From IMG/VR virus record IMGVR_UViG_3300045135_002615, positions 186,001 to 250,000 of that record: DNA of 64,000 nucleotides; one strand, given 5' to 3'. The position numbers and the translations under genes were made by a program. The DNA comes from a virus. The notes beneath the pieces are model-generated. The model was not told the origin of the DNA. It saw only the letters and a list, made by a program, of their open reading frames with translations, and did not search any database. Position 1 is the stretch's first letter, and the number at the start of each line of letters is the position of its first letter. Positions 4,837 through 62,930 of this stretch are shown here, piece after piece.

Positions 4837-4872
4837 TGAGGTGCATGGGAGATATTCACATAGGTGGTCACC

Positions 4873-6492: not shown

Positions 6493-6507
6493 GTCGGTAA
6501 AACTAAC

Positions 6508-6534
6508 GGGTGGGGTTGATAGTCAACCCCACCC
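6508..6534 (+). terminator. Strong hairpin after the pentapeptide gene
   Basis: A perfect 12-bp stem (GGGTGGGGTTGA with TCAACCCCACCC) has a TAG loop and is followed by TTCTC. It lies 16 bases after the stop at 6492 and before nrdA. The T-run is short, so termination may be partial. Confidence 0.6.
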
Positions 6535-6580
6535 TTCTCAACCTAAGATTGCTCGTAAGAGCATACATGTCGAGAGTAAG

Positions 6581-9031
6581 ATGAACCAAGACGATTTTAA
6601 GTTTTCGGATCACGCCCTTTCCCTATTGTCTTCCTACTACATGGGTCAAGACGAACAAGACCCAACTGAGGCATTCCGTAGGGCGGCGTATTCTTTCACC
6701 CCTAATAAAGAGCTGGCAGAGAGGCTCTATGAGTATGTATGTAAGGGATGGTTTATGTTCTCCTCTCCTGTCCTCTCTAATGCAGGTCGTTCGGGACTAC
6801 CCATCTCTTGCTTTCTTAGCTATGTGGAGGACTCTATCACAGGTCTCATCTCACATACTGAGGAGCTGAGGTGGATGAGTGTTATGGGTGGCGGTGTAGG
6901 TGGTCACTGGGACGGTGTTCGCTCTGTATCAAACAAGTCACCTGGTCCAATCCCCTTCATCAAGACCGTTGATGCTGATATGGTTGCCTATCGTCAGGGT
7001 TTAACTCGTAAAGGATCTTATGCCGCGTACCTTGATGTTTCACACCCTGATCTTGTTGAGTTCTTAAATCTCCGCCTCCCCACAGGTGGTGACACCAACC
7101 GAAAAGCATTCAACATCAACAATGCACTCAACATCACAGATGCCTTCATGGAAGCTGTCCTTAAAGGAAAGCCATGGGACCTCATTGACCCTAATGATGG
7201 TGAAGTGAGAGACACCCTTGATGCCCGTGAACTATGGCAACGTATCCTTGAGGTTCGCTTCCGTACAGGTGAGCCCTACCTCAACTTCATTGATGAGGCG
7301 AATAGACACCTACCTCAACCCCTTAAGGACAAGGGGCTCAAGATCCATGGGTCTAATCTTTGTGTGAGAGGAGACACTCAAATCTTGACCGATAAGGGCT
7401 ACTACCCTATCCAATCACTCGCAGGTAAGCGTGTTAAAGTTTGGAACGGAAAGACATGGTCAACTTCCTTGGTGGCTAAGACAGGTGAAAATGAGAACCT
7501 ATTGAAGATCCGTCTTTCAAATGGGTCAGAACTCTACACCACCCCTTACCATAAGTTCTACACTGTAGAGGGTGTGGAGGTTCAAGCACAAAATCTTGAG
7601 AAGGGCTTAGCCCTCAAGCAGTTCAGCCTCCCTGTAGTGGCAGGTGAAGGCTCATGGGAGAACCCCTATAGCTTGGGGTTCTACCTCTATGATGCCACAG
7701 CCCCCGTTAATCTTGATCTTAAGACCCGTGTCTCATGGTTGAGTGGTTTCATTGACGCTAGAGGCTCAGTTGAGAAGCCCTTTACTCCCTTTATTCAGAT
7801 CAACCACTCTAACTATGACTTCATGCGTCAAGTGGCTCTTATGCTCAATACAATGGGCGTGGCCCCGATCTTAGAACAGAAGCCCACCCATACTGAAATC
7901 AAGATCAACCCCGTAGATGTACAACGACTAAAGGCTCTTGGGTTAGAGACACAGCGTCTTGTTGTCCGTTCAACTCACGTTGAAGGTTCTCACAAAGCTC
8001 AAGTTGAAGTCATGTCTGTTGAGCCATGTGGTGTGGCTGACACTTACTGCTTCAATGAACCCCAAAGACATATGGGCATCTTGAATGGTATCCTAACAGG
8101 CAACTGCAACGAGATCCATCTCCCTACCAGCCCTGAGAGATCCGCTGTCTGTTGTTTGAGCTCACTCAATCTAGAGCACTTTGACGAGTGGTGTGACACC
8201 ACCATCGTTGAGGACTTGATTGAGTTCCTCGATGATGTCCTCCAATACTTCATTGACAATGCACCCCATCAGCTCAGCAAGGCTATCTTCTCAGCCAAGT
8301 CAGAGCGGTCACTAGGTTTAGGGACTATGGGCTTCCACGCATATCTACAGCGAAAAGGTCTCCCCTTTGAGTCCGCCCTTGCTGTTGGTGTTAATCGCCG
8401 TATCTTCTCCACGATCAAGGAGAAGGCAGTACAAGCTACAGAGAGGCTCGCTAAGGAGAAGGGTGAATACCTTGATGGTATTGGCTCAGGTCGTAGGAAC
8501 TCACACTTGTTAGCTATAGCACCGAACGCCAACTCCGCTATCATCCTCGACACCTCCCCTAGTATCGAGCCTTGGAAGTCAAACGCCTTCACTCACCGCA
8601 CTCGTGCGGGCTCCTTCTTGCAGTTCAACAAGTACCTTGAAGAACTCCTTAAGACCAAAGAGGGTATCGACTTTGAGGAGGTCAAGCAGAGCATCATCTT
8701 GAGCCAAGGTTCTGTGCAACACCTTGAGTGCTTGACCGATTGGGAGAAGCAAATCTTTAAGACTGCATTTGAGCTTGATCAGATGTGGGTCGTTGAGCAC
8801 GCTTCTGTGAGACAAGAGTGGATCTGTCAAGGTCAGTCGGTCAACCTCTTCTTCCCTTCAGGCTCGGACATCAATTATGTCAGTAATGTTCACCTCTCAG
8901 CATGGAAGAAGAAGCTCAAGGGGCTTTACTATCTCCGCACCAATACTGGTGTAGTGGCGGATAAGGTCAGCGAGAAGGTGGAAAGACAAGCACTTAAAGA
9001 CTTTGATGAGTGCTTGAGCTGTCAAGGTTAA
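6581..9031 (+). CDS. nrdA: Ribonucleotide reductase large subunit with intein
   Basis: This enzyme reduces ribonucleoside diphosphates to deoxy forms for phage DNA synthesis. The precursor has 816 residues; removing the 248-residue intein leaves a 568-residue enzyme. Start 6581 (MNQDDFKFSDHALSLLSSYY) is chosen because a hairpin terminator lies upstream and further in-frame codons overlap the previous gene. Catalytic signatures: first redox Cys in GLPISCFLS, MGGGVGGHWDG, radical Cys in SNL-C-NEI (split by the intein), second redox Cys in AVCCLSSLNL, RSLGLGTMGFH, Tyr pair in LYYLRTNTG, and the C-terminal CLSCQG. No N-terminal ATP cone is present, so dATP inhibition is probably lost. The small subunit NrdB is not in this window. 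Confidence 0.95.
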   Translation: MNQDDFKFSDHALSLLSSYYMGQDEQDPTEAFRRAAYSFTPNKELAERLYEYVCKGWFMFSSPVLSNAGRSGLPISCFLSYVEDSITGLISHTEELRWMSVMGGGVGGHWDGVRSVSNKSPGPIPFIKTVDADMVAYRQGLTRKGSYAAYLDVSHPDLVEFLNLRLPTGGDTNRKAFNINNALNITDAFMEAVLKGKPWDLIDPNDGEVRDTLDARELWQRILEVRFRTGEPYLNFIDEANRHLPQPLKDKGLKIHGSNLCVRGDTQILTDKGYYPIQSLAGKRVKVWNGKTWSTSLVAKTGENENLLKIRLSNGSELYTTPYHKFYTVEGVEVQAQNLEKGLALKQFSLPVVAGEGSWENPYSLGFYLYDATAPVNLDLKTRVSWLSGFIDARGSVEKPFTPFIQINHSNYDFMRQVALMLNTMGVAPILEQKPTHTEIKINPVDVQRLKALGLETQRLVVRSTHVEGSHKAQVEVMSVEPCGVADTYCFNEPQRHMGILNGILTGNCNEIHLPTSPERSAVCCLSSLNLEHFDEWCDTTIVEDLIEFLDDVLQYFIDNAPHQLSKAIFSAKSERSLGLGTMGFHAYLQRKGLPFESALAVGVNRRIFSTIKEKAVQATERLAKEKGEYLDGIGSGRRNSHLLAIAPNANSAIILDTSPSIEPWKSNAFTHRTRAGSFLQFNKYLEELLKTKEGIDFEEVKQSIILSQGSVQHLECLTDWEKQIFKTAFELDQMWVVEHASVRQEWICQGQSVNLFFPSGSDINYVSNVHLSAWKKKLKGLYYLRTNTGVVADKVSEKVERQALKDFDECLSCQG
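7361..8104 (+). mobile_element. Intein in nrdA (248 residues)
   Basis: The intein begins with Cys (CVRGDTQILTDKGYYPIQSL, block A) and ends in MGILNGILTGN, followed by Cys of the extein. Block B is in SNGSELYTTPYHKFY; block F in GVADTYCFNEPQRHMG. The junction is SNL^C-NEI, a known intein site in RNR large subunits. A single LAGLIDADG-like motif (WLSGFIDARGSV) remains in a short central region, so the homing endonuclease is reduced or degenerate. The penultimate residue is Gly, not the usual His, as in several RNR inteins. The catalytic radical Cys is the +1 residue, so activity requires splicing. Confidence 0.93.
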
Positions 9032-9565: not shown

Positions 9566-10093
9566 ATGAGAGATAAGATTAGTCACCTAGAAGCCCGTAT
9601 TGCACTTCTTGAGCGTTCTTCTTCGGATCGCTTCCGTCCGAGTGATCCTGAGCCCGACCCTTCATGGCAACACACGTCCCCCAATGATATTGATGTACGC
9701 GGTCCCGCTGACCGCCCAAATGCGACACCTTCTGAACTGTGGGAGGAGATGAAAAACTACATGGTGGAGAATGGACTTGGTCGTGTTAAGGCTACGCCAG
9801 GCACTGTTTCCTTCTACCTCTTTTACTACCTAGACCCCGAACAATACCTAGACCCCGACCAAGCTAACTATTACCGAGGTCGCGAGCTTGCTGAAATCTT
9901 CGCCAGGATTGTCAGGAACAAAAGAGGATGGACTGACAGAGGATGGACTGCGAGGCAGCTTGGTGGGGACAAGGTACGGGTCACCAAAACCAAAGGTAGA
10001 GCTATTTACAGGGGTGAGCGTATCCATGTAGAAGGAGAAGCCATTTTCAGGGTCACTATCAAAAATGATTGGATCACCATCCACAAGCCTTAA
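9566..10093 (+). CDS. Coiled-coil-tagged hypothetical protein
   Basis: This is a 175-residue protein. Residues 1-17 (MRDKISHLEARIALLER) are the shared tag with heptad spacing of Ile and Leu. A Pro-rich linker follows (PSDPEPDPSW), then a globular region (ELWEEMKNYMVENGLGRVKA; FYLFYYLDPEQYLDPD) and a C-terminal beta-rich end. No family is recognised. AAAGGAGG precedes the ATG. The first ~50 bases of its coding sequence are almost identical to those of the next gene (10104), while the rest differs. Confidence 0.7.
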   Translation: MRDKISHLEARIALLERSSSDRFRPSDPEPDPSWQHTSPNDIDVRGPADRPNATPSELWEEMKNYMVENGLGRVKATPGTVSFYLFYYLDPEQYLDPDQANYYRGRELAEIFARIVRNKRGWTDRGWTARQLGGDKVRVTKTKGRAIYRGERIHVEGEAIFRVTIKNDWITIHKP

Positions 10094-10103
10094 GGAGACA
10101 TTT

Positions 10104-10670
10104 ATGAGAGATAAGATTAGTCAACTAGAAGCCCGTATTGCACGTCTTGAGCGAGAGTCTAAGGAGAAGTATCCTTGGGACGATTGCATCAAAGATCAGA
10201 TGGAGCAGTACGGGGACAAAGAGACTGCTGAGAAGGTCTGTGGCAAGATCAAGGCACAGTCTCAGGGTAAGAAGGCATCAGATGCGGATCGAATGAATGT
10301 GTTCGTAGGCTCTCTCAAACAGCAGCTACCTCGTGACATCAAGATTGAGGTCTCTGTAGTTGACCGTGAGTCTCATGGCACTACTTATTCTGTTAGTATC
10401 TACCCTTTCAATCCGAATATCTATGATCGCATGGACCTTTTGCGTTTCAAGGGTGATCCAAGACGCTCCGCACCTGCCACCCCTGCGGCTAAGGCTTCCA
10501 ATCGTAAAGCTGCCAACGCTATTCGTAAGGCATTGAAGTTGTTCAATGATGACATTAGACTGCTCAATGACTATAGCTATGAAAAGCCAACTTTGAGGAG
10601 ACCAAGAGTTGGTCCAGCGTACTACGATGGTGTTGCACACGAGATTATCGTCCTCGCTTACAATGTCTAA
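10104..10670 (+). CDS. Coiled-coil-tagged protein with DQMxxYGxxExAxxVCGxIK motif
   Basis: This protein has 188 residues from ATG 10104, chosen because TAAGGAGA lies directly before it and the tag begins there (MRDKISQLEARIARLERES). After the tag comes WDDCIKDQMEQYGDKETAEK-VCGKIKA, a short Cys-containing helical motif I associate with several phage proteins, then an Ala-rich helix (AKASNRKAANAIRKALKLF) and a beta-rich C-terminus. Function is unknown. The stop codon of the upstream tagged gene overlaps its ribosome site. Confidence 0.7.
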   Translation: MRDKISQLEARIARLERESKEKYPWDDCIKDQMEQYGDKETAEKVCGKIKAQSQGKKASDADRMNVFVGSLKQQLPRDIKIEVSVVDRESHGTTYSVSIYPFNPNIYDRMDLLRFKGDPRRSAPATPAAKASNRKAANAIRKALKLFNDDIRLLNDYSYEKPTLRRPRVGPAYYDGVAHEIIVLAYNV

Positions 10671-16549: not shown

Positions 16550-17050
16550 ATGTGGAGGAATGGCAAGGGAGATAAAGTGACCCTTACAGATGTTCTCTCA
16601 TTTGTTGAGAAGGCTCATGCAGTAGGGTCACAGGTAGTAGTTGGTACAGATAGTCAGCCTTTCAATCATGGCACTTTCTCTGTGACCGTAATCGCATTCC
16701 TCTCTAGTGATCGCTCCGTGCATGGCAGGTACTTTTACTTAGAACACTCAGAGCTGACTAAACACCACAATCTTTTTGAGAGGATTTATCACGAGGTGAG
16801 CCTCACGATAAACCTACTACATGAGATCAAGCATTTGACCCCTATAGAGGACATAGAAGTCCATATAGACGTGAGCCCTGATAATGGGAAAACAAAGACC
16901 TCACGTTGGTCAAATACCCTTGTTTCGATGGTTAGAGGGTATGGCGTTCGTGAGGTCTGTGTGAAGCCTTCTTCTTGGTGTGCTTCTAAGTTAGCAGATG
17001 CTTACACCAAGAAGAGGAGTATTCGTGTACTGAGGAACAGGGCTCAATAG
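16550..17050 (+). CDS. YkuK/DUF458-family RNase H-fold protein
   Basis: This 166-residue protein matches the family's length and motif order: VVVGTDSQPFNHGTFSVTVI (first catalytic Asp), EDIEVHIDVSPDNGKTKTS (second Asp with GKT) and LVSMVRGYGVREVCVKPSSW-CASKLAD (C-terminal Asp). The family is predicted to have an RNase H-like fold, but its substrate is not established. A GGAGGTG site precedes the ATG. It converges with the tagged gene at 17044, overlapping by seven bases. Confidence 0.72.
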   Translation: MWRNGKGDKVTLTDVLSFVEKAHAVGSQVVVGTDSQPFNHGTFSVTVIAFLSSDRSVHGRYFYLEHSELTKHHNLFERIYHEVSLTINLLHEIKHLTPIEDIEVHIDVSPDNGKTKTSRWSNTLVSMVRGYGVREVCVKPSSWCASKLADAYTKKRSIRVLRNRAQ

Positions 17051-17460
17051 TCGAAGTCTAGGGAGATCTCCAAGAGCTTGATCTCATCCTCTTCGAGAGG
17101 CTCACCGAGTACACTGATCACCATCTCGTAACGGAAGGTCACATCGGGGTCTCCCTCTTCGGGGTAATCTTCACTGTACGCTTTGACTTCCATAGAGTCG
17201 TCATCAGCCCAGTTAACCCAACCAAGATCCTTTAATCTCTCCTTCTTGATAAAGGAGAGTAGGTCTTCAAGGCTCTTGAACTTCTGCTTACGGTACATGG
17301 TGGCATAATCCTGCTCATAGTCACCGCTACCATCAGGGGAGAACCTAGTCTCTACGGAATAGACTGAAACCTCGAACCTATCCTTAGCGGGTTTCCCCCT
17401 AAGAGTCTTTTTTTCAAGGCGGGCAATGCGGCTCTCTAGCTCACTTATCTTGTTGATCAT
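17044..17460 (-). CDS. Coiled-coil-tagged acidic protein
   Basis: This is a 138-residue protein. Residues 1-17 (MINKISELESRIARLEK) are the shared tag. The rest is acidic and probably alpha/beta (DRFEVSVYSVETRFSPDGSG; FKSLEDLLSFIKKERLKDLG; RYEMVISVLGEPLEEDEIK) ending in LDFDY. No known family is apparent. A GGAT/AAAGGA site lies before the ATG, and a weak late-promoter-like element (AACTTATTTATAAAT) is 31 bases upstream. Confidence 0.7.
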   Translation of the reverse strand: MINKISELESRIARLEKKTLRGKPAKDRFEVSVYSVETRFSPDGSGDYEQDYATMYRKQKFKSLEDLLSFIKKERLKDLGWVNWADDDSMEVKAYSEDYPEEGDPDVTFRYEMVISVLGEPLEEDEIKLLEISLDFDY

Positions 17461-33895: not shown

Positions 33896-34177
33896 TCAGT
33901 AGAGGGTCTGAGAGTAGGCTCGGAGAAGTCCGAGCTTCTCCTCCGCCTCCAAAATGGCGAGCCAAGAATAAAATGCCTCATAACTGTCTTCCACTTCAAT
34001 GATCTCGCAATCAGTTAGCTCAAGGGCTTCCCTTGTGCTCTCGTCTGATCGCCCGCTCAGGCTTACTCGCTCCCTGGCGAGCTCGCCTGAGTAACAGATC
34101 TCGATGGTGGTGTCTTGGGCGGAGGCGACTGAGGAGAGGGCGGTGAGGGCGAGAAGTGTAGTTAGAATGGTACGCAT
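33896..34177 (-). CDS. Small exported protein (paralogue B)
   Basis: This 93-residue protein has a classical signal peptide: MRTILTTLLALTALSSVASA with cleavage before QDTTIE. The mature ~73 residues contain EICYSGELARERVSLSGRSD and ALELTDCEIIEVEDSYEAFY; the paired Cys and the LARE and ELTDCE elements match paralogue A at 33375. It is predicted periplasmic. Each paralogue has its own terminator and its own C-tract element, so the whole transcription unit was duplicated. Confidence 0.78.
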   Translation of the reverse strand: MRTILTTLLALTALSSVASAQDTTIEICYSGELARERVSLSGRSDESTREALELTDCEIIEVEDSYEAFYSWLAILEAEEKLGLLRAYSQTLY

Positions 34178-34213
34178 TGTTGTTTCCCTTTTGTGTGTTG
34201 TTGTTGCTTACAG

Positions 34214-34243
34214 GTATCAATGCCATCAGGGGGGGGTGTTTTT
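34214..34243 (-). promoter_or_regulatory. C-tract/CATTGATA element (copy 3)
   Basis: On the minus strand AAAAACACCCCCCCCTGATG leads to GCATTGATACCTGTAAGCAA, placed before 34177 as copy 2 is before 33707. Confidence 0.5.
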
Positions 34244-34245
34244 TT

Positions 34246-34258
34246 GGTTATTTATATA
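34246..34258 (+). promoter_or_regulatory. Weak late-promoter-like element GGTTATTTATATA
   Basis: It lies 42 bases before the start at 34300; it is less like the consensus than other copies. Confidence 0.3.
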
Positions 34259-34299
34259 TATACATTTGCATTAACCACCCTCTATTGGAGCAAAAAAAT

Positions 34300-34815
34300 A
34301 TGAGACACTTAACAGCAAGTCAGAAGATCGCTCACCTTGAGCATCGCCTCGCTCGTCTTGAAAGAAGAGCTACGCATTGGACTGATGTCTACCATCCGAG
34401 TGAGATGGTAGACGGCTACGTTGATGATATGGGCTACGAGAAGTACCCACCCAGCTATAGCCAAGGACCGGTATGTGACTCTATAGCAAGAGAGATGAGT
34501 CGCCGCCTGAAAAGGAAGGGTTATAATATCCAACATATGCCTGATTGGGTTGGGTATAGGATTCACCTCCCTTTGAATGGGATCACTTATGAGATGATAA
34601 ACTCAGATACTGATCCAAGTCTACCTCTCTGTAAAGAGTTAGTTCTCCAGGTAATGAAGGACGCAGGTCTTAAGGGTCATGTGTACTACAGGAGAGGGTC
34701 TCACTACTACAGGAAAGAGCTTGCGGGGGGTCGCTGTCTCCTTAGTATTAGTTGCTCACAAGATGAGGGTCTGAGCTTTGATGTAGACAGGGTGATAACC
34801 CGACGTAGGAGATAA
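34300..34815 (+). CDS. Coiled-coil-tagged hypothetical protein
   Basis: This protein has 171 residues from ATG 34300 (TTGGAG upstream); the frame extends further 5' but that part lies in the leader. It begins MRHLTASQKIAHLEHRLARL-ERR, the extended form of the tag also used by the next gene. The remainder is basic alpha/beta (DSIAREMSRRLKRKGYNIQH; ELVLQVMKDAGLKGHVYYRR) ending in RVITRRRR. No family is recognised. Confidence 0.7.
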   Translation: MRHLTASQKIAHLEHRLARLERRATHWTDVYHPSEMVDGYVDDMGYEKYPPSYSQGPVCDSIAREMSRRLKRKGYNIQHMPDWVGYRIHLPLNGITYEMINSDTDPSLPLCKELVLQVMKDAGLKGHVYYRRGSHYYRKELAGGRCLLSISCSQDEGLSFDVDRVITRRRR

Positions 34816-34824
34816 GGGGGTTAT

Positions 34825-34839
34825 ACTCCATTTATCACC
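34825..34839 (+). promoter_or_regulatory. Late-promoter-like element ACTCCATTTATCACC
   Basis: It lies 35 bases before the start at 34875 and resembles the copy at 19512. Confidence 0.3.
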
Positions 34840-34874
34840 ACCACATCAGGCACCAACTAAAGGAGGAGATGTCC

Positions 34875-35243
34875 ATGAGACACTTAACAGCTAGTCAAAA
34901 AATCGCTCAACTTGAATCCCGTATCGCCCGTCTAGAGAAGCAAGCCTCTTTGAGAAGAGGTCTCGACAGGGAGGAGGAAACCGTCTTAGATGAAGTAATC
35001 CACCACTACAGACTCAGGCCACGAGACTATGAAGATGTCGAAATTAGTATTGAGGATCAGGTAGGGCGTGGGGAAGATAGGATCGTGCTCTATGAGGTGT
35101 CTCTTTTCAAAGAAGACGGGGATAGCTTTACTTGCTATGTCCTTTATGACGCTTACGAAGAATTGGTGGAAGGGTTTTACGATTACCAAGATGATTATGA
35201 AGCCCAAAGAGCCTTTGACTCACTAGTAGAGCGACACGCATAA
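34875..35243 (+). CDS. Coiled-coil-tagged acidic protein
   Basis: This protein has 122 residues from ATG 34875, eight bases after AGGAGG; the ATG at 34869 is too close to that site. It begins MRHLTASQKIAQLESRIARL-EKQAS, almost identical to the start of the gene at 34300. The rest is acidic (YEDVEISIEDQVGRGEDRIV; YDAYEELVEGFYDYQDDYEA) and shares no visible similarity with the neighbour. Thus only the tag was copied or conserved. Confidence 0.7.
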   Translation: MRHLTASQKIAQLESRIARLEKQASLRRGLDREEETVLDEVIHHYRLRPRDYEDVEISIEDQVGRGEDRIVLYEVSLFKEDGDSFTCYVLYDAYEELVEGFYDYQDDYEAQRAFDSLVERHA

Positions 35244-38335: not shown

Positions 38336-40252
38336 ATGAAAGACATGATTGATTACTTTAAAACGATGATTACCCCACCTGTAGAGGATGCTCTTGTGCT
38401 CGTAGCTAAGCCTTCTGAGATTGCTTATGATGAGTATATTCAGGAGGTCTTAGAGGAGGGTGAACTCGCACCTACTAGGGAGCCTATGGTTCACGGAGTC
38501 ATCCTCTTGGAAGAGCCTACAGATGAAGAATCTAAGCAGCTACTTTCCATCTTGAAGCCAGGTGGACATGTTGTACTGATCCCTGTAGACCCGATTGGAT
38601 ACAAGGGGGTGGTCGCCCTTGAGGACACAGGGTTTGAGGTACGAGATGCAATCTTTGTAGCAGATGATCCATATACCTTTTACTACACATCTAAGGCGAG
38701 TAGAACTGAGAGAGAAGCAGGGCTTAAGTCTAAAGATGGTAGTAGAGCCAACACCCACCCTTGCCTCCACCCCAGAGCAGATGTGCTCACAGATAGAGGG
38801 TATCGTCCTATCGAAGACATTAAGATTGGCGATAATGTCTATACTTCATCGGGGACGTTCCATAAGGTAGAGTATGTCTCCCGTCATCCTTACACTAGCC
38901 CATGCCTATATGAGATCTCAGTGCAAGGAACTAACTACACAACGCTCAGTTCTGATAATCATCCTTTCTTAATCTACCGCCCCGTTCGTAAGTCTAATGC
39001 TATTGTAGGAGGCTCTGTGGGATGGGTACAAGGCTGTGATATTCGTAAGGGGGACTATACGATGACCCCTGTCTTTAAAGAGCCTGTCGAAGACTCTCCT
39101 CTATCTCAAGATTCTTATGAGGGTTGGTTTGTGTTTGGGCTATGGGTTGCTGAGGGGGTTCTCCATACTTCGGGAGGGGGGTCCAACAGATACCCTTCTT
39201 TCACAATCAACTCAGAAAAGATCGAGCTTATTGAAACGATCAAACGTGTGTATTCTTCTGTGAATGTCTCAGTCTACGAAAAGCAAGGGAACGCAGTTCA
39301 AGTGGTGGCTTTTTGTCGAGACAAGGGGGAGGAGTACTTCCGTCTAGCAGGTAAAGGGGCGGGCACTAAGTCTCTCGACCCAAGCATATGGAAACTGAGC
39401 CTTTCAGAGAGACAAGCAATCTTAGATGGTTATATGGCAGGAGATGGGTGTGTAATTCGCTCATATACTCAAGCCAAAACGGTATCGCCTGATTTGGCTA
39501 GTCAGATGAGATTACTAGCCCACTCTGTAGGTCTTAAAGCAAACCTGTTTCGTTATGAGGGGAGTGTCGGAAGGGGTATTGGAGATCGTAAGTTTAAAAG
39601 CACCCTTCCTGAACACCATCTTAGATTTTACTCTAAGAACTTGAAACAAGCGAGAGGGGGCGGTTCAAGGAAGCCGAGCCGACCCACTATTATAAACCAT
39701 GAGGGAGTTGATTTTGTACTCTCCTATATTAAGTCTGTGGTGGAAGTTCCTTATGTAGGAGATGTCGTGAACCTCTCTGTTGAAGGCGACCCTACCTTTC
39801 AGACTGCTGTAGGTATGAGTCACAATACAGTGAAGCCCATAGGGATTATGGAGTGGTGTGCTAGGGACCTTGAGCCTAACTCTAAAGTCGCAGAGCCCTT
39901 CATGGGTTCAGGTACTACGGGTATCGCCATGAGCCGTCTTGGGCACGACTTCGTGGGTATAGAGCTGAACAAAGAATATGCGGAACTCAGTGAATCTTGT
40001 ATAAGGCATTGGATGCCCATTGGCACAGAGATCAAATCTGAGGCAGATGTGGGCAAAGCAGAATCTGCTCAAGGAGGGCAGGTATCTATTTTGACATCTT
40101 CGGATAGGAGACAACAATATGACACGTTATTGTGTTGCAACAGGAGAGAGTGCCAAGAGAGCCTTCTTGAAGGCAAAGGAGGAGAACCCTTTCCTAGACC
40201 CTTACAAGGCTTACTTCATCGAGAACTCGCATTGTGTATACAGCTTCGCTGA
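38336..40252 (+). CDS. Methyltransferase C-part (SAM-binding half) with intein
   Basis: This 638-residue precursor starts with an extra ~120-residue degenerate half (LLSILKPGGHVVLIPVDPIG; EDTGFEVRDAIFVADDP), like a methyltransferase fold without DPPY. Then FYYTSKASRTEREAG, NTHP, a 355-residue intein, and TVKPIGIMEWCARDLEPNSK-VAEPFMGSGTTGIAMSRLGH (SAM motif I) follow. The joined HPTVKP is the classical beta-class motif. The last ~70 residues overlap the next gene (40119) by 134 bases and look like out-of-frame readthrough; the original stop was probably lost. AGGAGA precedes the ATG. Confidence 0.8.
   Translation: MKDMIDYFKTMITPPVEDALVLVAKPSEIAYDEYIQEVLEEGELAPTREPMVHGVILLEEPTDEESKQLLSILKPGGHVVLIPVDPIGYKGVVALEDTGFEVRDAIFVADDPYTFYYTSKASRTEREAGLKSKDGSRANTHPCLHPRADVLTDRGYRPIEDIKIGDNVYTSSGTFHKVEYVSRHPYTSPCLYEISVQGTNYTTLSSDNHPFLIYRPVRKSNAIVGGSVGWVQGCDIRKGDYTMTPVFKEPVEDSPLSQDSYEGWFVFGLWVAEGVLHTSGGGSNRYPSFTINSEKIELIETIKRVYSSVNVSVYEKQGNAVQVVAFCRDKGEEYFRLAGKGAGTKSLDPSIWKLSLSERQAILDGYMAGDGCVIRSYTQAKTVSPDLASQMRLLAHSVGLKANLFRYEGSVGRGIGDRKFKSTLPEHHLRFYSKNLKQARGGGSRKPSRPTIINHEGVDFVLSYIKSVVEVPYVGDVVNLSVEGDPTFQTAVGMSHNTVKPIGIMEWCARDLEPNSKVAEPFMGSGTTGIAMSRLGHDFVGIELNKEYAELSESCIRHWMPIGTEIKSEADVGKAESAQGGQVSILTSSDRRQQYDTLLCCNRRECQESLLEGKGGEPFPRPLQGLLHRELALCIQLR
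38762..39826 (+). mobile_element. Intein in the methyltransferase (355 residues)
   Basis: The intein starts with Cys (CLHPRADVLTDRGYRPIEDI) and ends with His-Asn (VGMSHN), followed by Thr of the extein. Block B-like GTNYTTLSSDNHPFL and two LAGLIDADG motifs (FVFGLWVAEGVLH and AILDGYMAGDGCVI) are present, so a homing endonuclease is probably intact. The insertion point is HP^TVKP, inside the most conserved methyltransferase motif. Removing it restores the extein NTHPTVKPIGIM. Confidence 0.92.
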
Positions 40253-48124: not shown

Positions 48125-48402
48125 AGAAGCTCCTCGCTGTACTCGCTCTCACCGCTCTTGCCACAGGTTGCACCGATGCCACAATCGGTGCTTATGGGTC
48201 TTACGGCTCACGGGGTCACGCCACTTGCTACTCAGGCGGCAAGGTCACTTTCAACGCGATCTCAACGGGTCGCGTGAAAGACCAAGAGAACTCAGACGGG
48301 TTCTCAGCCAAGTGGCAGGACGTGGGGTCTGATGGGAAACCTCAAGGACCTGTCTACTACGCCACGGTAAGTGGGCAGTGCATCATCAAGTACCTCGACT
48401 GA
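48121..48402 (+). CDS. Phage-encoded lipoprotein
   Basis: This 93-residue protein has a type II signal: MKKLLAVLALTALATGCTDA, lipobox LATGC at residue ~17. The mature part (SRGHATCYSGGKVTFNAIST; QGPVYYATVSGQCIIKYLD) has two further Cys that may form a disulfide. I recall similar small lipoproteins with xTCYSGGKxIxxxxSTGxV in other phages, of unknown role, often suspected in superinfection exclusion. Its 3' end overlaps the convergent chaperonin gene by 17 bases. Confidence 0.8.
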   Translation: MKKLLAVLALTALATGCTDATIGAYGSYGSRGHATCYSGGKVTFNAISTGRVKDQENSDGFSAKWQDVGSDGKPQGPVYYATVSGQCIIKYLD

Positions 48403-49768
48403 TGATCACTTCAACACTAGCCAAGCTAGTGGCAACGCTGGTCGACTTGCGTAAAATACTCGCAAGACGACCCGCAGGGAAAGGCTGATAGAGTTCCTCT
48501 CTACTTAAGAGTTGGTCTTCAGTCAAATCCGCATTCCTAGCTACGGCTCTTAAGGGCTCTTTAAGAGCTTCATTAAGGGTTGGGGAGCTAGTCTCTATCT
48601 TGTATAGAGTTGGCAAAGCCCCCTCTACATATCCGTTCTTTAAAGCATCGGACATGGAGAGGAGGGCTTTTTCTGTTTGTACTCTCCTCACTCTACCCTC
48701 TGCTTCCGTATGACCACCTACTTTGAGCCTGATCAGTGAACCCGTTAGAGCATTAGCCCTCTGCCTCCACAAATCTTGTGTGTGGGTATGAGGGCTTTCT
48801 TGTGCTTCCTTTAAGAGCATCTCAGCTCTCTCTGCTGTCTTTTCAGCGTGTTCATCATAAGGGTATGTGATCATCTCATTGAAGTTAAGAACGCACTCAA
48901 AAGCGGATCCAAAGAACTCGGCTTTGAACTCACCATCAAGGTTAGGTTGGTGGACATGTCCTCCTGTAAATGCGGCGAAATCCTCCATCCACCCCATTCC
49001 CCATATGACTCTAGGGGCTTCTACGGCATGACAGTCGAGTACTCCCTTGTGCCTGTTTAGTTGGATTGTCTTGAGAGCCTGACCGCTAATGAAAGGGGCG
49101 ACGAGGACTAGTGGTCTGCCCTCAAATCCACCCATGAGCTCCATGATCGGCACGACCTGCTTCAAGTCTTTGAGGGGTTGGCTTGATAGGGCAAACATAG
49201 GTCCTTCTAGGTATGCCTCTTTATCTGTATGTATTCTTACTGATGAGTGTAGTGCCTCTGACTCAATGACCTCACACCCGACACCGATACCCTTCTCTAG
49301 CGTGATGTGTGTGGCTAGACCTCCACTCAGGTTGAGTGCCTCAGCGACCTTCTCAACACTTTCCCTATCTAAAGAACTCTCCATACCTATCTTGATAAGG
49401 GTATGTTCACTTGAGGGTAATGGTTTGATGTCTTTGATAGCCTCTAATACCGCATTATCGACTTGGTTAGTGTATGTCGGGTGTGGTGAGTCATACATGC
49501 GTGAGAAGCTCTTTAAAAGCCCCGTAGAGAGCAGGCAAGCAGTTTTAGCACCATCACCATTACCACATACCTCCAGGAGGTTGTATTGGACTATTTTTTG
49601 TATGATTGGGTTAGGGTAGTGCCATGCATTGAGTATGGACTTAGCGGAGGGGTTGTTCCATATTGAACCCCCTCTTTGCATCAATACGGTAGTCCCCTTT
49701 GCTTTGTGGGCGGCGAGCAAGATTTGTTCTACCTGTTTGATCGCGGGTATAAGATTATGGAACGACAT
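48386..49768 (-). CDS. groEL: GroEL-like chaperonin
   Basis: This protein has 460 residues from ATG 49768 (GGAG upstream); GroEL is ~548. Recognisable regions are, in order, the ATP-binding LEVCGNGDGAKTACLLSTGL (GDGTTTAT in GroEL), the apical domain (LEGPMFALSSQPLKDLKQVV; PLVLVAPFISGQALKTIQLN; KGVLDCHAVEAPRVIWGMGW-MEDFAAFTGG) and the equatorial end (LIRLKVGGHTEAEGRVRRVQ). The match is distant, with an altered hinge and no Gly-Met tail. It may fold phage proteins such as the capsid in place of host GroEL, perhaps without a GroES partner, none of which I find here. Confidence 0.82.
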   Translation of the reverse strand: MSFHNLIPAIKQVEQILLAAHKAKGTTVLMQRGGSIWNNPSAKSILNAWHYPNPIIQKIVQYNLLEVCGNGDGAKTACLLSTGLLKSFSRMYDSPHPTYTNQVDNAVLEAIKDIKPLPSSEHTLIKIGMESSLDRESVEKVAEALNLSGGLATHITLEKGIGVGCEVIESEALHSSVRIHTDKEAYLEGPMFALSSQPLKDLKQVVPIMELMGGFEGRPLVLVAPFISGQALKTIQLNRHKGVLDCHAVEAPRVIWGMGWMEDFAAFTGGHVHQPNLDGEFKAEFFGSAFECVLNFNEMITYPYDEHAEKTAERAEMLLKEAQESPHTHTQDLWRQRANALTGSLIRLKVGGHTEAEGRVRRVQTEKALLSMSDALKNGYVEGALPTLYKIETSSPTLNEALKEPLRAVARNADLTEDQLLSREELYQPFPAGRLASILRKSTSVATSLASVEVIISRGT

Positions 49769-49799
49769 CGAGGATCTCCATGTGAAAGGACTATGAAAC

Positions 49800-50744
49800 A
49801 TGTCTTCATCCGTTATACAGACTAGATCATCAGCGATCAGCTATAATACACGAGCCGCTAATTCAGTAGGTTGGGGTGGGTCTATCCCCCCCGCAGCAAT
49901 AGAGGCTTTCCCAGGTCTTGCTAAAGACCCTTCAACCAATGACTTTGCATTAGCTGTGGAGGCCTTCCAAGAGAAGACTTTTGGTGCGGGTGCTTCAGTA
50001 GATGGGAAGATGGGGCGTGGTACATGGTCCGCTCTCCTGAAGCAGTATGATCGAGTAGATGATACACAGCCCTTTTGGACTATTAACGACAGGCGTGTCA
50101 ACGTGGAGATTGACCCCTCTGTGGAGGTTGTAAACTTTGATCAGCCAGGTGGTCTTGATCTACACCGATTTGGTCACTTCTCATCTCGTAAGCGACCCCC
50201 ACGCTTTATTGTGGTACATTGGGGCGGTCTTGACCCTCATCATTGTTACAGGGTATTCTCAAGCCCTGATCGTCAAGTGAGCTCTCATGCGGGTATTGGG
50301 GTCTCACCTGAAGGCACCGCTACGATCTATCAGTACCTCGACCTCAACCATAAGTCATGGCACGCAGGTTGGGCAAACTCATATTCTGTAGGTATTGATA
50401 TTTGTCAGCAACCTTCTCTTAGGTGGAAGGATCATTACATCAAGAATGGTTACAACGTCCAAGAGATGAAGAACATGACGGGCAGGGGCGATGCTAATGT
50501 TTTGACCCTTGATCCTAGAGTAGCAATCGCTACTCGTGAAGCCGTTAAGAGCCTCTGTAAGGTTCTTAACATCCCTTATCAGTTCCCATGTGGTTCAGAT
50601 GGTCAGAGCTATGAGGGTGGTTTTTATCATGGGGTAGTGGATAAGGATTATCTCACTAACTCCTTCACAGGTGTGATTGGGCATCATCATATCACACAGA
50701 AGAAGTGGGATTGTGCCTGTTGGTGGGACACTCTCTTTGGTTGA
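49800..50744 (+). CDS. N-acetylmuramoyl-L-alanine amidase with peptidoglycan-binding-like region
   Basis: This is a 314-residue protein. The N-terminal ~90 residues resemble a peptidoglycan-binding module (LAVEAFQEKTFGAGASVDGK-MGRGTWSALL). The C-terminal amidase_2 fold has zinc ligands in FIVVHWGGLDPHHC (His), SSHAGIGVSPEGTATIYQYL and SWHAGWANSYSVGIDICQQP; the third ligand is near the end (GHHHITQKKWDCACWW). It would cut the bond between glycan and stem peptide. No signal peptide is seen, so it is either a tail-associated enzyme or a holin-dependent endolysin. Confidence 0.85.
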   Translation: MSSSVIQTRSSAISYNTRAANSVGWGGSIPPAAIEAFPGLAKDPSTNDFALAVEAFQEKTFGAGASVDGKMGRGTWSALLKQYDRVDDTQPFWTINDRRVNVEIDPSVEVVNFDQPGGLDLHRFGHFSSRKRPPRFIVVHWGGLDPHHCYRVFSSPDRQVSSHAGIGVSPEGTATIYQYLDLNHKSWHAGWANSYSVGIDICQQPSLRWKDHYIKNGYNVQEMKNMTGRGDANVLTLDPRVAIATREAVKSLCKVLNIPYQFPCGSDGQSYEGGFYHGVVDKDYLTNSFTGVIGHHHITQKKWDCACWWDTLFG

Positions 50745-56178: not shown

Positions 56179-56931
56179 ATGAACTTACTATTGATCGCAA
56201 CCTTGTCCCTACAATGCATGATCCCTTACGTCCAAGAAGCCTCAAGGACTGAGATACTTAAGGGGTGGAAGTATTACAGAGGTCGAGCTACCTCATCTTC
56301 ACGAGCTCTCCGTCTTTTGAGGTATATGGAGGAGGGTGGCGACATTGACACCCGTTTACTTGCCCTGTCATGGATTGAAGGGAGACTTCGTACAGGGGTT
56401 AAAAGAGGAGACCGAGGACGTGCCTGTGGGATATTCCAAATCCATGCACGACACTCTTACCCCATGTTCTCTCGTAAGAGGGGCTATGTGGATTGGGATG
56501 AAAAGGAGTCTAAGCATCTCATTGAAAGAGAATGCCGTCAGCTTGAACACACTAAGTATTCTATAACCACCATGAATAGGTACTTAGACTATATGGATAG
56601 AAGAGACTTGCACCCCTGCCATCACAACAGCGGACCAAAAGGCAAGTGCAACACATGGTATAAACAAAGACTCGATTTTTGGATCGGGTTCTTCGAGATC
56701 GCTAAGATAGCGTGCGACCCAGAAAGAAGAGAGAACATTATGGCAATGATGAGAACAGGAAACCCTATCCCTACCGCTCCCGCTCCCTTGATGCAAGGGT
56801 ACATGGATGCTATCTCTGGTAAGGATGTACAAAGCGAAGACCCTGTTTACAAGTCAGGTTATGATCTAGCTTTGCTTGTTAAGGAGGGTAAGGCAGAGGC
56901 ACCCACTTGGGCGGCAGAGGGGAATGGATGA
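56179..56931 (+). CDS. Lysozyme-like (SLT-type) exported protein
   Basis: This is a 250-residue protein. The hydrophobic start MNLLLIATLSLQCMIPYVQE is probably a signal peptide. The catalytic-type region is LLALSWIEGRLRTGVKRGDR (Glu ~74), then RACGIFQIHARHSYP and CHHNSGPKGKCNTWY, matching SLT muramidases (E...GxFQI...NxG). The C-terminal ~65 residues are less conserved. This is the second such gene in the window (cf. 45755), so one may work in entry and one in release. It overlaps the primase-like gene by four bases. Confidence 0.75.
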   Translation: MNLLLIATLSLQCMIPYVQEASRTEILKGWKYYRGRATSSSRALRLLRYMEEGGDIDTRLLALSWIEGRLRTGVKRGDRGRACGIFQIHARHSYPMFSRKRGYVDWDEKESKHLIERECRQLEHTKYSITTMNRYLDYMDRRDLHPCHHNSGPKGKCNTWYKQRLDFWIGFFEIAKIACDPERRENIMAMMRTGNPIPTAPAPLMQGYMDAISGKDVQSEDPVYKSGYDLALLVKEGKAEAPTWAAEGNG

Positions 56932-57596
56932 AGGACTTATGGCTCAGGAAAGGGCTAGGTCCACCCTTACCTGAATACCAAAAGTACCTTGATTCACGAG
57001 GAGTCACAGATCAGTGCTCCGTATCTTTCCACTCATGGATGCCACATGATGAAGTTCAATGCCCTAAGTTCAAAGCACACTATGGTGCTCAAGGTGAACG
57101 TATCTCACAACACCTTATCGTCCCCGTCACTTCACCAAGAGGTGAGATACTTGGACTAGAGTGTCGCAAGATCATAGACGGAGAAAAGAAGGTAACCCAA
57201 TACCGAACCGTCAGTTCACAATGGAACCCGTATATACTCGGTGCAGAGAAGGCATTTGAAGCACTATGGTCAGGGGGTGACGTATGGGTCGTTGAGGGTA
57301 TGTTTGATAAAGTAGCCCTTGACAGGATCTTACCCAAGACAGATGCAGTTATAGCTACTCTTAGAGCGGGTATGGATGCGATCACCTTAGAGATGCTCAC
57401 TCAGTTCTATACACCTGCTTCTACTATCTATGTCTGTTATGACAATGATGAGACAGGTAGGAAGAAGGCTAAGTGGTTGCATAAGTCGTTTATTGACAGA
57501 GGTGTGAGGGCTGTCGTGTGGTCATATAGAGGTAAAGACCCTAATGATGTATGGACACATGGTGGAGACAAACAACTAATGAGAATGTTCCTATAG
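56928..57596 (+). CDS. TOPRIM DNA primase-like protein
   Basis: This protein has 222 residues from ATG 56928 (ATGA overlap with the previous stop; GAGGGG upstream). The TOPRIM signature is complete: VWVVEGMFDKVAL (Glu ~115), IYVCYDNDETGRKKAKWLHK (DxDxxG) and WSYRGKDPNDVWTHGG. The N-terminal ~90 residues (EYQKYLDSRGVTDQCSVSFH; QHLIVPVTSPRGEILGLECR) match the primase core. It has no zinc-binding domain or helicase domain, so it is a minimal DnaG/gp61-like primase or a recombination-factor TOPRIM protein. Confidence 0.8.
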   Translation: MKDLWLRKGLGPPLPEYQKYLDSRGVTDQCSVSFHSWMPHDEVQCPKFKAHYGAQGERISQHLIVPVTSPRGEILGLECRKIIDGEKKVTQYRTVSSQWNPYILGAEKAFEALWSGGDVWVVEGMFDKVALDRILPKTDAVIATLRAGMDAITLEMLTQFYTPASTIYVCYDNDETGRKKAKWLHKSFIDRGVRAVVWSYRGKDPNDVWTHGGDKQLMRMFL

Positions 57597-57605
57597 GAGG
57601 GCATC

Positions 57606-58613
57606 ATGATCGCTGAATATATATGGGTAGATGGTAGTGAACCTACGGCTCGTTTGAGATCAAAGACCAAGATTTTTCACGAGGAGGTCGAAGAGTGGCC
57701 TCTGTGGTCTTTTGATGGTTCTTCCACTAACCAAGCCACAGGAGATCGTTCGGATTGTATCCTTCAACCCGCCGCGATCATTAATGACCCTCTCAGGGGA
57801 GGAGACAATGTCCTCATTCTCTGTGAGGTGTTTAATGCCGATGGGACACCCCACCCAACCAACAACAGAGCTAGGCTTCGTGAAGCCCTTAAAGGGCATG
57901 AGGACTTAGACGCATGGGTGGGCTTTGAGCAAGAGTATACTTTGTTCTCAGGTTCTCGCCCATTAGGGTTTCCTTCTGAACGTAGGTTCCCACCTGCTCA
58001 AGGTCCTTATTACTGTGGTGTGGGGTCAGATGAGGTAGCAGGTAGGGCTCTAGTAGAGAAGCACCTTGATATGTGTCTAAAGGCAAAGATACCTCTTACG
58101 GGTATTAATGCTGAGGTCATGCCTGGTCAATGGGAGTACCAAGTGGGTGGTCCCAATGTAGACCCTCTAGCAGGTTCTGACTTTGTGTGGTTGTCTAGGT
58201 GGTTGCTTTACCGCTTAGGTGAACACTATGAGTTAACCGCGACCCTCGATCCTAAGCCTGTGCCAGGTGATTGGAATGGTGCGGGTATGCACACAAACTT
58301 CTCAACTAGGGCGATGCGTGAAGAGGGTGGTATTGAGGAGATATACAAGGCGGTGGAAACCATTGGCACTCACATCAAGAACCACTTGGATCGCTATGGT
58401 AATGGGATTGAGTCTCGTCTAACAGGCTTGCATGAGACATGTAGATATGACGTATTCAAGTACGGGGTTTCAGACCGTACAGCTTCTATCCGCATCCCTC
58501 TTGAGACTGTCAGGAATGGTTGTGGTTACTTTGAGGATCGCAGACCTAATGCGAATGCTGATCCTTATCTTGTCAGTGAGGCACTTATCCGTAGCATCAC
58601 GGGGACGTGGTAA
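57606..58613 (+). CDS. glnII: Type II (eukaryote-like) glutamine synthetase
   Basis: This 335-residue protein is the full length for GSII. Motifs in order: WSFDGSSTNQATGDRSDCIL, VGFEQEYTLFSG (metal Glu), GINAEVMPGQWEYQVGG, GDWNGAGMHTNFSTR, GLHETCRYDVFKYGVSDRTA-SIRIP and GYFEDRRPNANADPY. All catalytic residues I can judge are present, so it should make glutamine from glutamate, ammonia and ATP. AGGAGG precedes the ATG; it follows the primase-like gene by nine bases. Glutamine feeds purine, CTP and NAD synthesis and could also serve as amino donor for DNA-base modification (inference). Confidence 0.95.
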   Translation: MIAEYIWVDGSEPTARLRSKTKIFHEEVEEWPLWSFDGSSTNQATGDRSDCILQPAAIINDPLRGGDNVLILCEVFNADGTPHPTNNRARLREALKGHEDLDAWVGFEQEYTLFSGSRPLGFPSERRFPPAQGPYYCGVGSDEVAGRALVEKHLDMCLKAKIPLTGINAEVMPGQWEYQVGGPNVDPLAGSDFVWLSRWLLYRLGEHYELTATLDPKPVPGDWNGAGMHTNFSTRAMREEGGIEEIYKAVETIGTHIKNHLDRYGNGIESRLTGLHETCRYDVFKYGVSDRTASIRIPLETVRNGCGYFEDRRPNANADPYLVSEALIRSITGTW

Positions 58614-59199
58614 GTCGGTATTGTTTTAAATCCTCAATGGAAAAGTGAGGGTTCAACATAGAGAACTTATGGAAGGCAGACTTCTCCCCACGTCTAAGGA
58701 CGCCCGAAGCCTTCACTAGATCATCTCGATAGCTCTTTGCCTCATTGAGTGCCTCTAGGGGTGCTAACCCCGCAATAGTGAATACACCCTCCCCTTCGTG
58801 AACCACTACAATCTGACCTTCAGAGATGTAGCACGAAGGGGAGGGTTTTTTCATGAGAGGGAAGTCGGGTGCGTTTACAGTCTTCACACCTACTCTAAAT
58901 CCTAGAGGTGACAAGTCAGGTACGTTGTAGTCTTTAGACGCACCTATGCTACGATCAGAGAACCTAACACCTAAATGCTTCTCTACTGCTAACTCCCCTG
59001 CCCATCCAGTCACCCACCTTTTGAGTACCGATTTAGGGTCCTCGATGTAGTGTCCTTCACGCTCTTTAACCTCAGCGAGCTTGATCGCCACCTCTGCGAT
59101 CTCTTTTAGTTCGCTACGTTCTAGAGTAATCTTGGTACACATACTTAGGTGGGGTTCGACAATAGCTTTGTAGCTTGCTTCAATGTCTCCGTATATCAT
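58597..59199 (-). CDS. PD-(D/E)XK nuclease-like protein
   Basis: This 200-residue protein has a core pattern resembling the restriction-endonuclease fold: Glu in VTGWAGELAVEKHLGVRFSD (~75), Asp in KDYNVPDLSPLG (~95), and a beta strand with Lys in FRVGVKTVNAPDF (~107). The spacing fits E-xn-PD-xn-(x)xK. I do not see other domains. A function such as a homing or recycling nuclease, or a recombination nuclease, would fit. Converges with the glutamine synthetase gene, overlapping by 17 bases. Confidence 0.55.
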   Translation of the reverse strand: MIYGDIEASYKAIVEPHLSMCTKITLERSELKEIAEVAIKLAEVKEREGHYIEDPKSVLKRWVTGWAGELAVEKHLGVRFSDRSIGASKDYNVPDLSPLGFRVGVKTVNAPDFPLMKKPSPSCYISEGQIVVVHEGEGVFTIAGLAPLEALNEAKSYRDDLVKASGVLRRGEKSAFHKFSMLNPHFSIEDLKQYRLTTSP

Positions 59200-61229: not shown

Positions 61230-62930
61230 ATGGACCCTATCGACCGACTAATCTCAAGCCTCAACAAGAAGGTTATCCGTAAACTCGCCGCTGAAGACCT
61301 CCCTACCTTTGAGGAAGCGATCAAGGGAAAGACCTTCAAGAACCCTAATACGGGTAATGACGTTCAGTTTGGATCACTCCCTGCCGAAGAGCAGAAGAAG
61401 ATCCGTGCTGAATATGACAAGAAGGTGGAGGAGCTTGAAGGAGAGGGTAAGGGTAAGGGAGAGAAGAAGCCTCTCAAAAAGATGACCAAGGTTCAATTGC
61501 TTGATCAGCTTGAAGGGGATAAGGACTTCTCAGGGGTTGATCTCACTAAGTTTAAAGACTTTGATTGGTCAAGTGTGGATTTGAGGGGTGCTAACTTCTC
61601 AGGTTCAGACCTGACAGGTGCGTACTTTGGTGTTGGTTCTAGACTCGAAGGAGCGAACTTTGAGGGTGCTAATCTTTCAGGTGTCGAGTTCAGAGGGAAA
61701 AAGGGTTATGGCGTGAGCCCGTACAGCGATACTCCAGATACTGTCCATAAAAACGTCAACTTCAAGGGTGCTAATCTTGAAGGTGCGGAGATGTCTTTTC
61801 TTCGTTTTGAAAATTCAGATTTAAGCGGTGCTAATCTAAAGGGTGCTGAGCTTGACGCGGTGATGATAGATAGAAAATGCACCGTAAGAGGTGCTGACTT
61901 TGAGGGTGCAACCTTTCATGCCTCCCAATTCAATGGCGTCAATCTGAAGGGTGTGAACTTTGCGGGAGCAACCATAAAGTCTGGGGGTGGATATAATAAC
62001 AGTAGAAGAACCTTCGACAGAGCGAACATCTCAGGTGCAGACTTCTCAGGTGCAAACTTCGCCTTCGGTGACGCTTTTAGGTTTGGTGGTAACTTTGGGA
62101 AACCCGCCAAAATAAATGGAGCTAAGTTTAGATTTGATGTTCTAGAAAGTGTGGGAACTAAAGAATTTAAAGCATTTGGCTTTGATAAAGACAATCCTCC
62201 TGAAGGCTTGTCCGATAAGGTTCTACATAAAATGGTTGGTGGTAGGGAGTACCTAGAGTATAGGGAGGCTGAAGAAGATAAAGCTGAAGAAGCTAAAGCT
62301 AAGGCTGATGCGGAAGCCAAAGCTAAAGCTGATGAGGAAGCCAAAGCCAAAGCTAAAGCTGATGAGGAAGCCAAAGCCAAAGCTAAGGCTGATGAGGAAG
62401 CTAAAGCTAAGGCTGATGCTGAAGCCAAAGCTAAGGCTGATGCTGAAGCCAAAGCTAAGGCTAAAGCTGAAGCCAAAGCTAAGGCTGATGCTGAAGCCAA
62501 GGCTAAGGCTGATGAGGAAGCCAAAGCTAAAGCTAAGGCTGATGAGGAAGCCAAAGCCAAGGCTAAGGCTGATGAGGAAGCCAAAGCTAAAGCTGAGGAA
62601 GAAGAGAAGATCAAAGAGAACTCAAAACGTCTTAAAGACCTTGAGTCTAAGATTAAAGCCGTTAAGAAGAAAGATGATCTCATTGACCTTGTGTCTGAGC
62701 TAGGTAGGATGAAGGGTCAACTCTCAAACGCTAAGTTTAAGGACAAACTAGAGTCTGAGATGAAGGCTGTCGATAAAGCTGTACAAAACGCGAAAGAGAA
62801 CACGTCTTTCACGGGTAGGATTAAGAGCTTCTTCGGTCTAGGTAAAAAGGCAAGGCTCAAGGAAGCCCGACTCTTGCTCAATGGACTTCAGGATGAGATC
62901 GAGCATCTCAAGAGGGACATCAACCGCTGA
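61230..62930 (+). CDS. Pentapeptide-repeat protein with TolA-like Ala/Lys/Glu helix
   Basis: This is a 566-residue protein. The N-terminus (MDPIDRLISSLNKKVIRKLA) may be a distant tag; then KGKTFKNPNTGNDVQFGSLP, a short module I associate with phage proteins. Pentapeptide repeats follow at ~95-290 (GANFSGSDLTGAYF; GADFEGATFHASQFNGVNLK). Residues ~350-460 are (AK)xAD/AE-EAKAK repeats, a long rigid helix like that of TolA. The end is coiled coil plus basic segment (LKEARLLLNGLQDEIEHLKR). It is placed beside a tail-fibre-like gene, so it may be a long virion fibre or internal filament (inference). Confidence 0.75.
   Translation: MDPIDRLISSLNKKVIRKLAAEDLPTFEEAIKGKTFKNPNTGNDVQFGSLPAEEQKKIRAEYDKKVEELEGEGKGKGEKKPLKKMTKVQLLDQLEGDKDFSGVDLTKFKDFDWSSVDLRGANFSGSDLTGAYFGVGSRLEGANFEGANLSGVEFRGKKGYGVSPYSDTPDTVHKNVNFKGANLEGAEMSFLRFENSDLSGANLKGAELDAVMIDRKCTVRGADFEGATFHASQFNGVNLKGVNFAGATIKSGGGYNNSRRTFDRANISGADFSGANFAFGDAFRFGGNFGKPAKINGAKFRFDVLESVGTKEFKAFGFDKDNPPEGLSDKVLHKMVGGREYLEYREAEEDKAEEAKAKADAEAKAKADEEAKAKAKADEEAKAKAKADEEAKAKADAEAKAKADAEAKAKAKAEAKAKADAEAKAKADEEAKAKAKADEEAKAKAKADEEAKAKAEEEEKIKENSKRLKDLESKIKAVKKKDDLIDLVSELGRMKGQLSNAKFKDKLESEMKAVDKAVQNAKENTSFTGRIKSFFGLGKKARLKEARLLLNGLQDEIEHLKRDINR
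62281..62604 (+). repeat. Short coding repeats (AAAGCTAAGGCTGATGAGGAAGCC type)
   Basis: About 325 bases of imperfect 12- to 36-base repeats in frame in the gene at 61230 encode Ala/Lys/Asp/Glu repeats. Such arrays vary in copy number by slippage or recombination. Confidence 0.9.

Follow-up and report, generated by a model that had tools for sequence, protein, structure and literature searches.

Type II glutamine synthetase (GSII) is the form of the glutamine-making enzyme found in eukaryotes and some bacteria. Glutamine synthetase (GS) genes have also been described in viruses. The Global Ocean Sampling study of 2007 includes a passage on viral type II GS sequences, which make up a large group near mimivirus and eukaryotic GS (PMC1821046), and a 2025 account of moraphages, in the part concerned with this gene, gives GS in 9 of 25 (PMC12619734). 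The enzyme is also listed in surveys of jumbo phages and of viruses (PMC13037316, PMC12542629, PMC10721903). Here we analyze a GSII gene in a 64,000-nucleotide stretch of viral DNA (hereafter, the window), taken from a virus record of 296,642 bp (positions 186001-250000).

The record and its gene content

We covered the record as stretches 1-200,000 and 248,001-296,642, with the window for the rest. Its viral hallmarks are a large terminase (TerL), whose relatives are phage terminases, and a ClpP-type head maturation protease; genes that look tail-like by eye are also present. The record is a jumbo-phage genome, or a fragment of one, from a bacterial virus. Nucleotide metabolism is represented in the window by ThyX (NCBIfam), thymidine kinase (Pfam), and, by eye, a ribonucleotide reductase that probably contains an intein, a set that fits a demand for nucleotides. 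Probable inteins, read by eye, lie at 6434-9031 and 38336-40252 of the window, in the ribonucleotide reductase and a DNA methyltransferase-like gene.

We note several further features of this genome. A divergent phage GroEL of 471 aa is encoded at 48386-49801 (minus strand) of the window, and pentapeptide-repeat-like proteins (by eye) at 61230-62930 and 4864-6492; the protein at 61230-62930 also appears to contain a long run of AKADEEAKAKA-type repeats. A pattern search of the record (G000) found a near-identical N-terminal leader, approximately M(R)HLTASQKIAQLExRIAxLEKxA, at 14 places; it precedes unlike bodies in at least 14 different proteins. Examples lie at 34177-35243, 9566-10670, and 17044-17460 (minus strand) of the window, and elsewhere in the record at L058:5004, L061:15691-16560 (minus strand), L062:1282-3891, and L065:8676-10665. 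This shared leader is perhaps a targeting or cleavage signal.

The window encodes a predicted full-length GSII

The GS gene occupies positions 57606-58613 on the plus strand and encodes 335 aa from an ATG start, with no internal stop. It is preceded by an AGGAGG Shine-Dalgarno sequence (57595-57600, plus strand), which leaves a 5-nt spacer to the start codon. Both Pfam domains exceed their gathering cut-offs (Gln-synt_N, 4e-13; Gln-synt_C, 7e-16). The NCBIfam model for GlnII, NF041605, matches over positions 5-328 of 333 with an E-value of 3.3e-144 and 480 bits, 20 bits short of its equivalog cut-off of 500 bits; other NCBIfam matches are far weaker (GlnA, 2e-13; type III, 1.1e-9). The best PDB match is the GSII of Streptomyces coelicolor (4bax; 2e-126, residues 3-329). 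An AlphaFold model built from an input of 33 sequences (the window copy and the loci) has a pLDDT of 93 and a TM score of 0.96 to 4bax, which predicts a GSII fold. Any one of the Pfam, PDB, and NCBIfam E-values suffices to exclude a chance match. The sequence resembles GSII more than it does GSI or GSIII, and the open reading frame is, judged from it, a full-length, intact GSII. The first-pass annotation of the window had described the gene in these terms, with all GSII motifs present, and that description stands.

Residues identical to maize GS in the alignment include D37, S40, E108, E110, E170, E177, H229, R271, E277, R291, R296, E310, and R312 (phage numbering). None of these positions varies among the viral sequences that span it (53-57 in number), and Y136 is present in 56 of 56. 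We take D37 and S40 to lie on the ammonium side, E108, E110, E170, E177, H229, and E310 to bind metals, E277 to belong to the flap, and R271, R291, R296, and R312 to contact glutamate and phosphate. The metal, glutamate, ammonium, and phosphate ligand set of GSII is complete in the predicted protein.

Enterobacterial GSI is adenylylated on a tyrosine. The phage chain terminates soon after the DPYLV motif, 17 residues from its start, and the alignment with maize GS contains no NLYD(LPP) segment in the phage protein; hence, the adenylylated tyrosine has no counterpart there. These features are consistent with the earlier suggestion that the enzyme would escape adenylylation by the host.

GSII is an accessory, movable gene of large phages

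A scan of IMG/VR identified 56 other GSII loci, 44-71% identical, some of which are near-duplicates. In INPHARED, GSII is present in 4 of 50,697 records, all of them uncultured huge phages of 635-735 kb. The claim that phage glutamine synthetases are uncommon is thus borne out for GSII in annotated phage records, but not for uncultured large phages, where the gene recurs. Among terminase-related records, some of which may be incomplete, GS is found in 8 of 20 overall and in 5 of the 8 with a length of 200 kb or more (this record included in both counts). By the first-pass annotation, absence from close relatives would count against its reading of the gene, and such absence is seen in part: the gene is accessory. 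One terminase-related record, G004 (L173), has a long insert in the terminase itself.

The position of the gene also varies, and its neighbors differ in related phages. GS adjoins methyltransferase-like genes in three loci (L002, L003, and L019), a tail gene set in L008, L014, and L015, and a short conserved gene in L012 and L016. No partner gene is common to the GS family across loci, and we rejected a conserved operon on this ground. In the GS-lacking relatives G022 and G018, the spot facing the nuclease-like gene (see below) holds a RecD2-like helicase of 484-495 aa; the present phage encodes its own copy of this helicase at the far end of its record. GS distances nevertheless correlate with TerL distances (Mantel rho 0.62, p 0.0012; 8 records), so GS has mostly followed the phage lineage even as it changed its place in the genome, and it has long been retained within this clade. 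We conclude that GS is an accessory, movable metabolic gene. We class it as a viral auxiliary metabolic gene: it lies in a record with viral hallmarks, its distribution is accessory, and its viral relatives are under selection, as described next.

Close pairs of viral GS are under purifying selection, with dN/dS of ~0.02-0.21 (NG86). Ratios are ~0.02-0.05 for L003/L019 (dN 0.014, dS 0.64), L002/L003 (dN 0.026, dS 0.82), and L002/L019, 0.14 for L018/L025 (dN 0.021, dS 0.15), and 0.21 for L029/L030; silent sites are saturated in more distant pairs, among them every pair that involves the window copy. One alternative is that the gene was picked up from a host and has no selected role, as its accessory distribution and variable position might suggest. 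We give this almost no credence, and for the viral relatives it is largely refuted by dN/dS well below 1, by catalytic residues conserved widely over deep viral branches, and by the correlation with TerL.

In a tree of 79 GS sequences, 32 form a clade (support 99/92) that contains the window copy and a single cellular member, L071; the nearest relatives of the window copy are L002-L005 and L019. L071, whose GSII is ~65% identical, is a proteobacterial MAG contig, and transfer in either direction is possible. We considered whether it is a mis-binned phage contig and rejected this, as its flanks look bacterial by eye and include an NtrC-type regulator. A single clade of all viral GSII was rejected (p-AU 1.4e-5), so there were several transfers of GSII into or out of viral lineages. 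The sequences from the 735-kb and 634-642-kb phages (L151-L153), together with L052, group with eukaryotic GSII (support 95/84). This grouping is unsafe because the branches are long and the sampling of bacterial GSII, drawn from the 80 nearest matches of one scan, is biased. Large phages may hold old GSII lineages maintained by viruses, with viruses as a route of GSII between bacteria and eukaryotes, a scenario that we regard as rather improbable.

Genes adjoining GS

The gene immediately upstream (56907-57596, plus strand) encodes the Toprim half of a DnaG-like primase (Toprim_2, 1.6e-10; TIGR01391 positions 195-355). The primase is split in this phage, and its zinc-binding half lies ~87 kb away, at L065:15579-16085. 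The primase-like neighbor reported earlier is therefore confirmed and is now resolved as half of a split DnaG. The Toprim and GS genes are on the same strand with a 9-nt gap and hence are probably co-transcribed; the AGGAGG sequence of GS overlaps the stop of the Toprim gene, so coupled translation is likely. A scan for sigma-70 promoters around GS gave a site count not above that of shuffles, and an Rfam search of the window found two tRNAs only and no riboswitch or other known RNA.

Downstream and convergent (58597-59199, minus strand) is a gene for a 200-aa protein that is possibly a nuclease of the PD-(D/E)XK type. It has no Pfam, PHROG, or NCBIfam match and no significant Foldseek match. 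Its fold weakly resembles those of restriction endonuclease-like proteins (DpnI, I-Ssp6803I, and PvuII) at Z ~6 and rmsd 4-5, which makes the nuclease label given to it earlier a tentative one. Of the 11 other loci that have a homologue, 9 carry it no more than ~2.1 kb from GS; several of these loci are near-duplicates, and the orientation of the homologue varies.

Predicted role during infection

We propose that the gene encodes a working GSII whose role is plain glutamine supply during infection, and we put the probability of this reading at about 0.72. The enzyme would make glutamine from glutamate, ammonium, and ATP in the infected cell. Produced during infection, it would raise or hold the glutamine pool of the cell. 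Lacking the segment at which enterobacterial GSI is adenylylated, it would stay active when a host of the enterobacterial type shuts its own GSI down. Host synthesis of purines, pyrimidines, and proteins would then draw on the glutamine, in the service of a genome of ~300 kb. Supply for nucleotide synthesis, as first suggested, is plausible.

Which enzymes would consume this glutamine? We searched for class I (PF00117) and class II (PF13522) glutamine amidotransferases and found neither in the present record; the same searches were positive in 14 of 14 control genomes. Among 20 GS-carrying records, 2 have a class I enzyme, 1 has a class II enzyme, and 17 have neither. PII was also sought and found in 0 of 19 records, and we rejected PII-linked nitrogen regulation as a candidate role. 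With no amidotransferase of these two classes in the record, no PII in the 19, and no conserved partner gene, the likely consumers are host enzymes. This favors plain glutamine supply and argues against GS being part of a dedicated phage pathway.

Ranked next is the possibility that an active GSII serves chiefly as an ammonium sink or modifies the nitrogen-status signal of the host, rather than acting as a source of glutamine. This would suit a record in which neither large class of glutamine-using enzyme was found, and, with PII absent, any nitrogen signaling would run through host proteins. However, the host brings glutamine-using enzymes anyway, and we consider the idea unlikely.

Less probable still is a role in which GS provides glutamine, or else a glutamyl group, to modify bases in phage DNA, as the first-pass annotation had proposed. 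The position of GS between primase-like and possible nuclease genes invites this idea, as do several DNA methyltransferase-like genes recognized by eye in the phage. Against it, the amidotransferase classes are lacking here and in most GS-carrying records, other phages do not have the primase beside GS, and the family as a whole shares no partner gene. This part of the earlier interpretation is not upheld.

It is equally doubtful that the protein is a GS-like ligase acting on another amine, such as a polyamine or methylamine, instead of ammonium. GS-fold ligases with other amine substrates exist, and the NCBIfam model for gamma-glutamylputrescine synthetase does match weakly (2.3e-7). The GlnII match is far better, however, and the Asp, Ser, Tyr, and Glu of the ammonium site are retained here and conserved in the viral homologues.

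Comparison with known systems

Among characterized enzymes, the GSII of Streptomyces coelicolor (4bax) is alike in length, fold, and ligand residues, with 57% identity in the structure alignment. Unlike bacterial GSII (GlnII) of this kind, the present copy is phage-encoded and lies inside a mostly viral clade. The GS of mimivirus and other giant viruses is also viral, and the ocean survey, in its passage on these sequences, places mimivirus with eukaryotic type II GS (PMC1821046); in contrast to the present phage, those viruses infect eukaryotes.

The viral GS of the ocean survey are similar in being type II genes assigned to viruses (PMC1821046). The moraphage genes likewise are GS in large aquatic phage genomes, of a type that the relevant part of that paper does not state (PMC12619734). 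Where they treat GS, both papers report its presence, without the active-site, selection, or synteny analysis given here. Because many other large phages carry one, the present GSII is a good further example of a viral metabolic gene of a kind already known, rather than a new system. It shows that large phages repeatedly carry an intact, conserved GSII as an accessory gene. If active, the enzyme would offer a direct means of acting on nitrogen control in infected cells, as a GS without the adenylylation segment of enterobacterial GSI.
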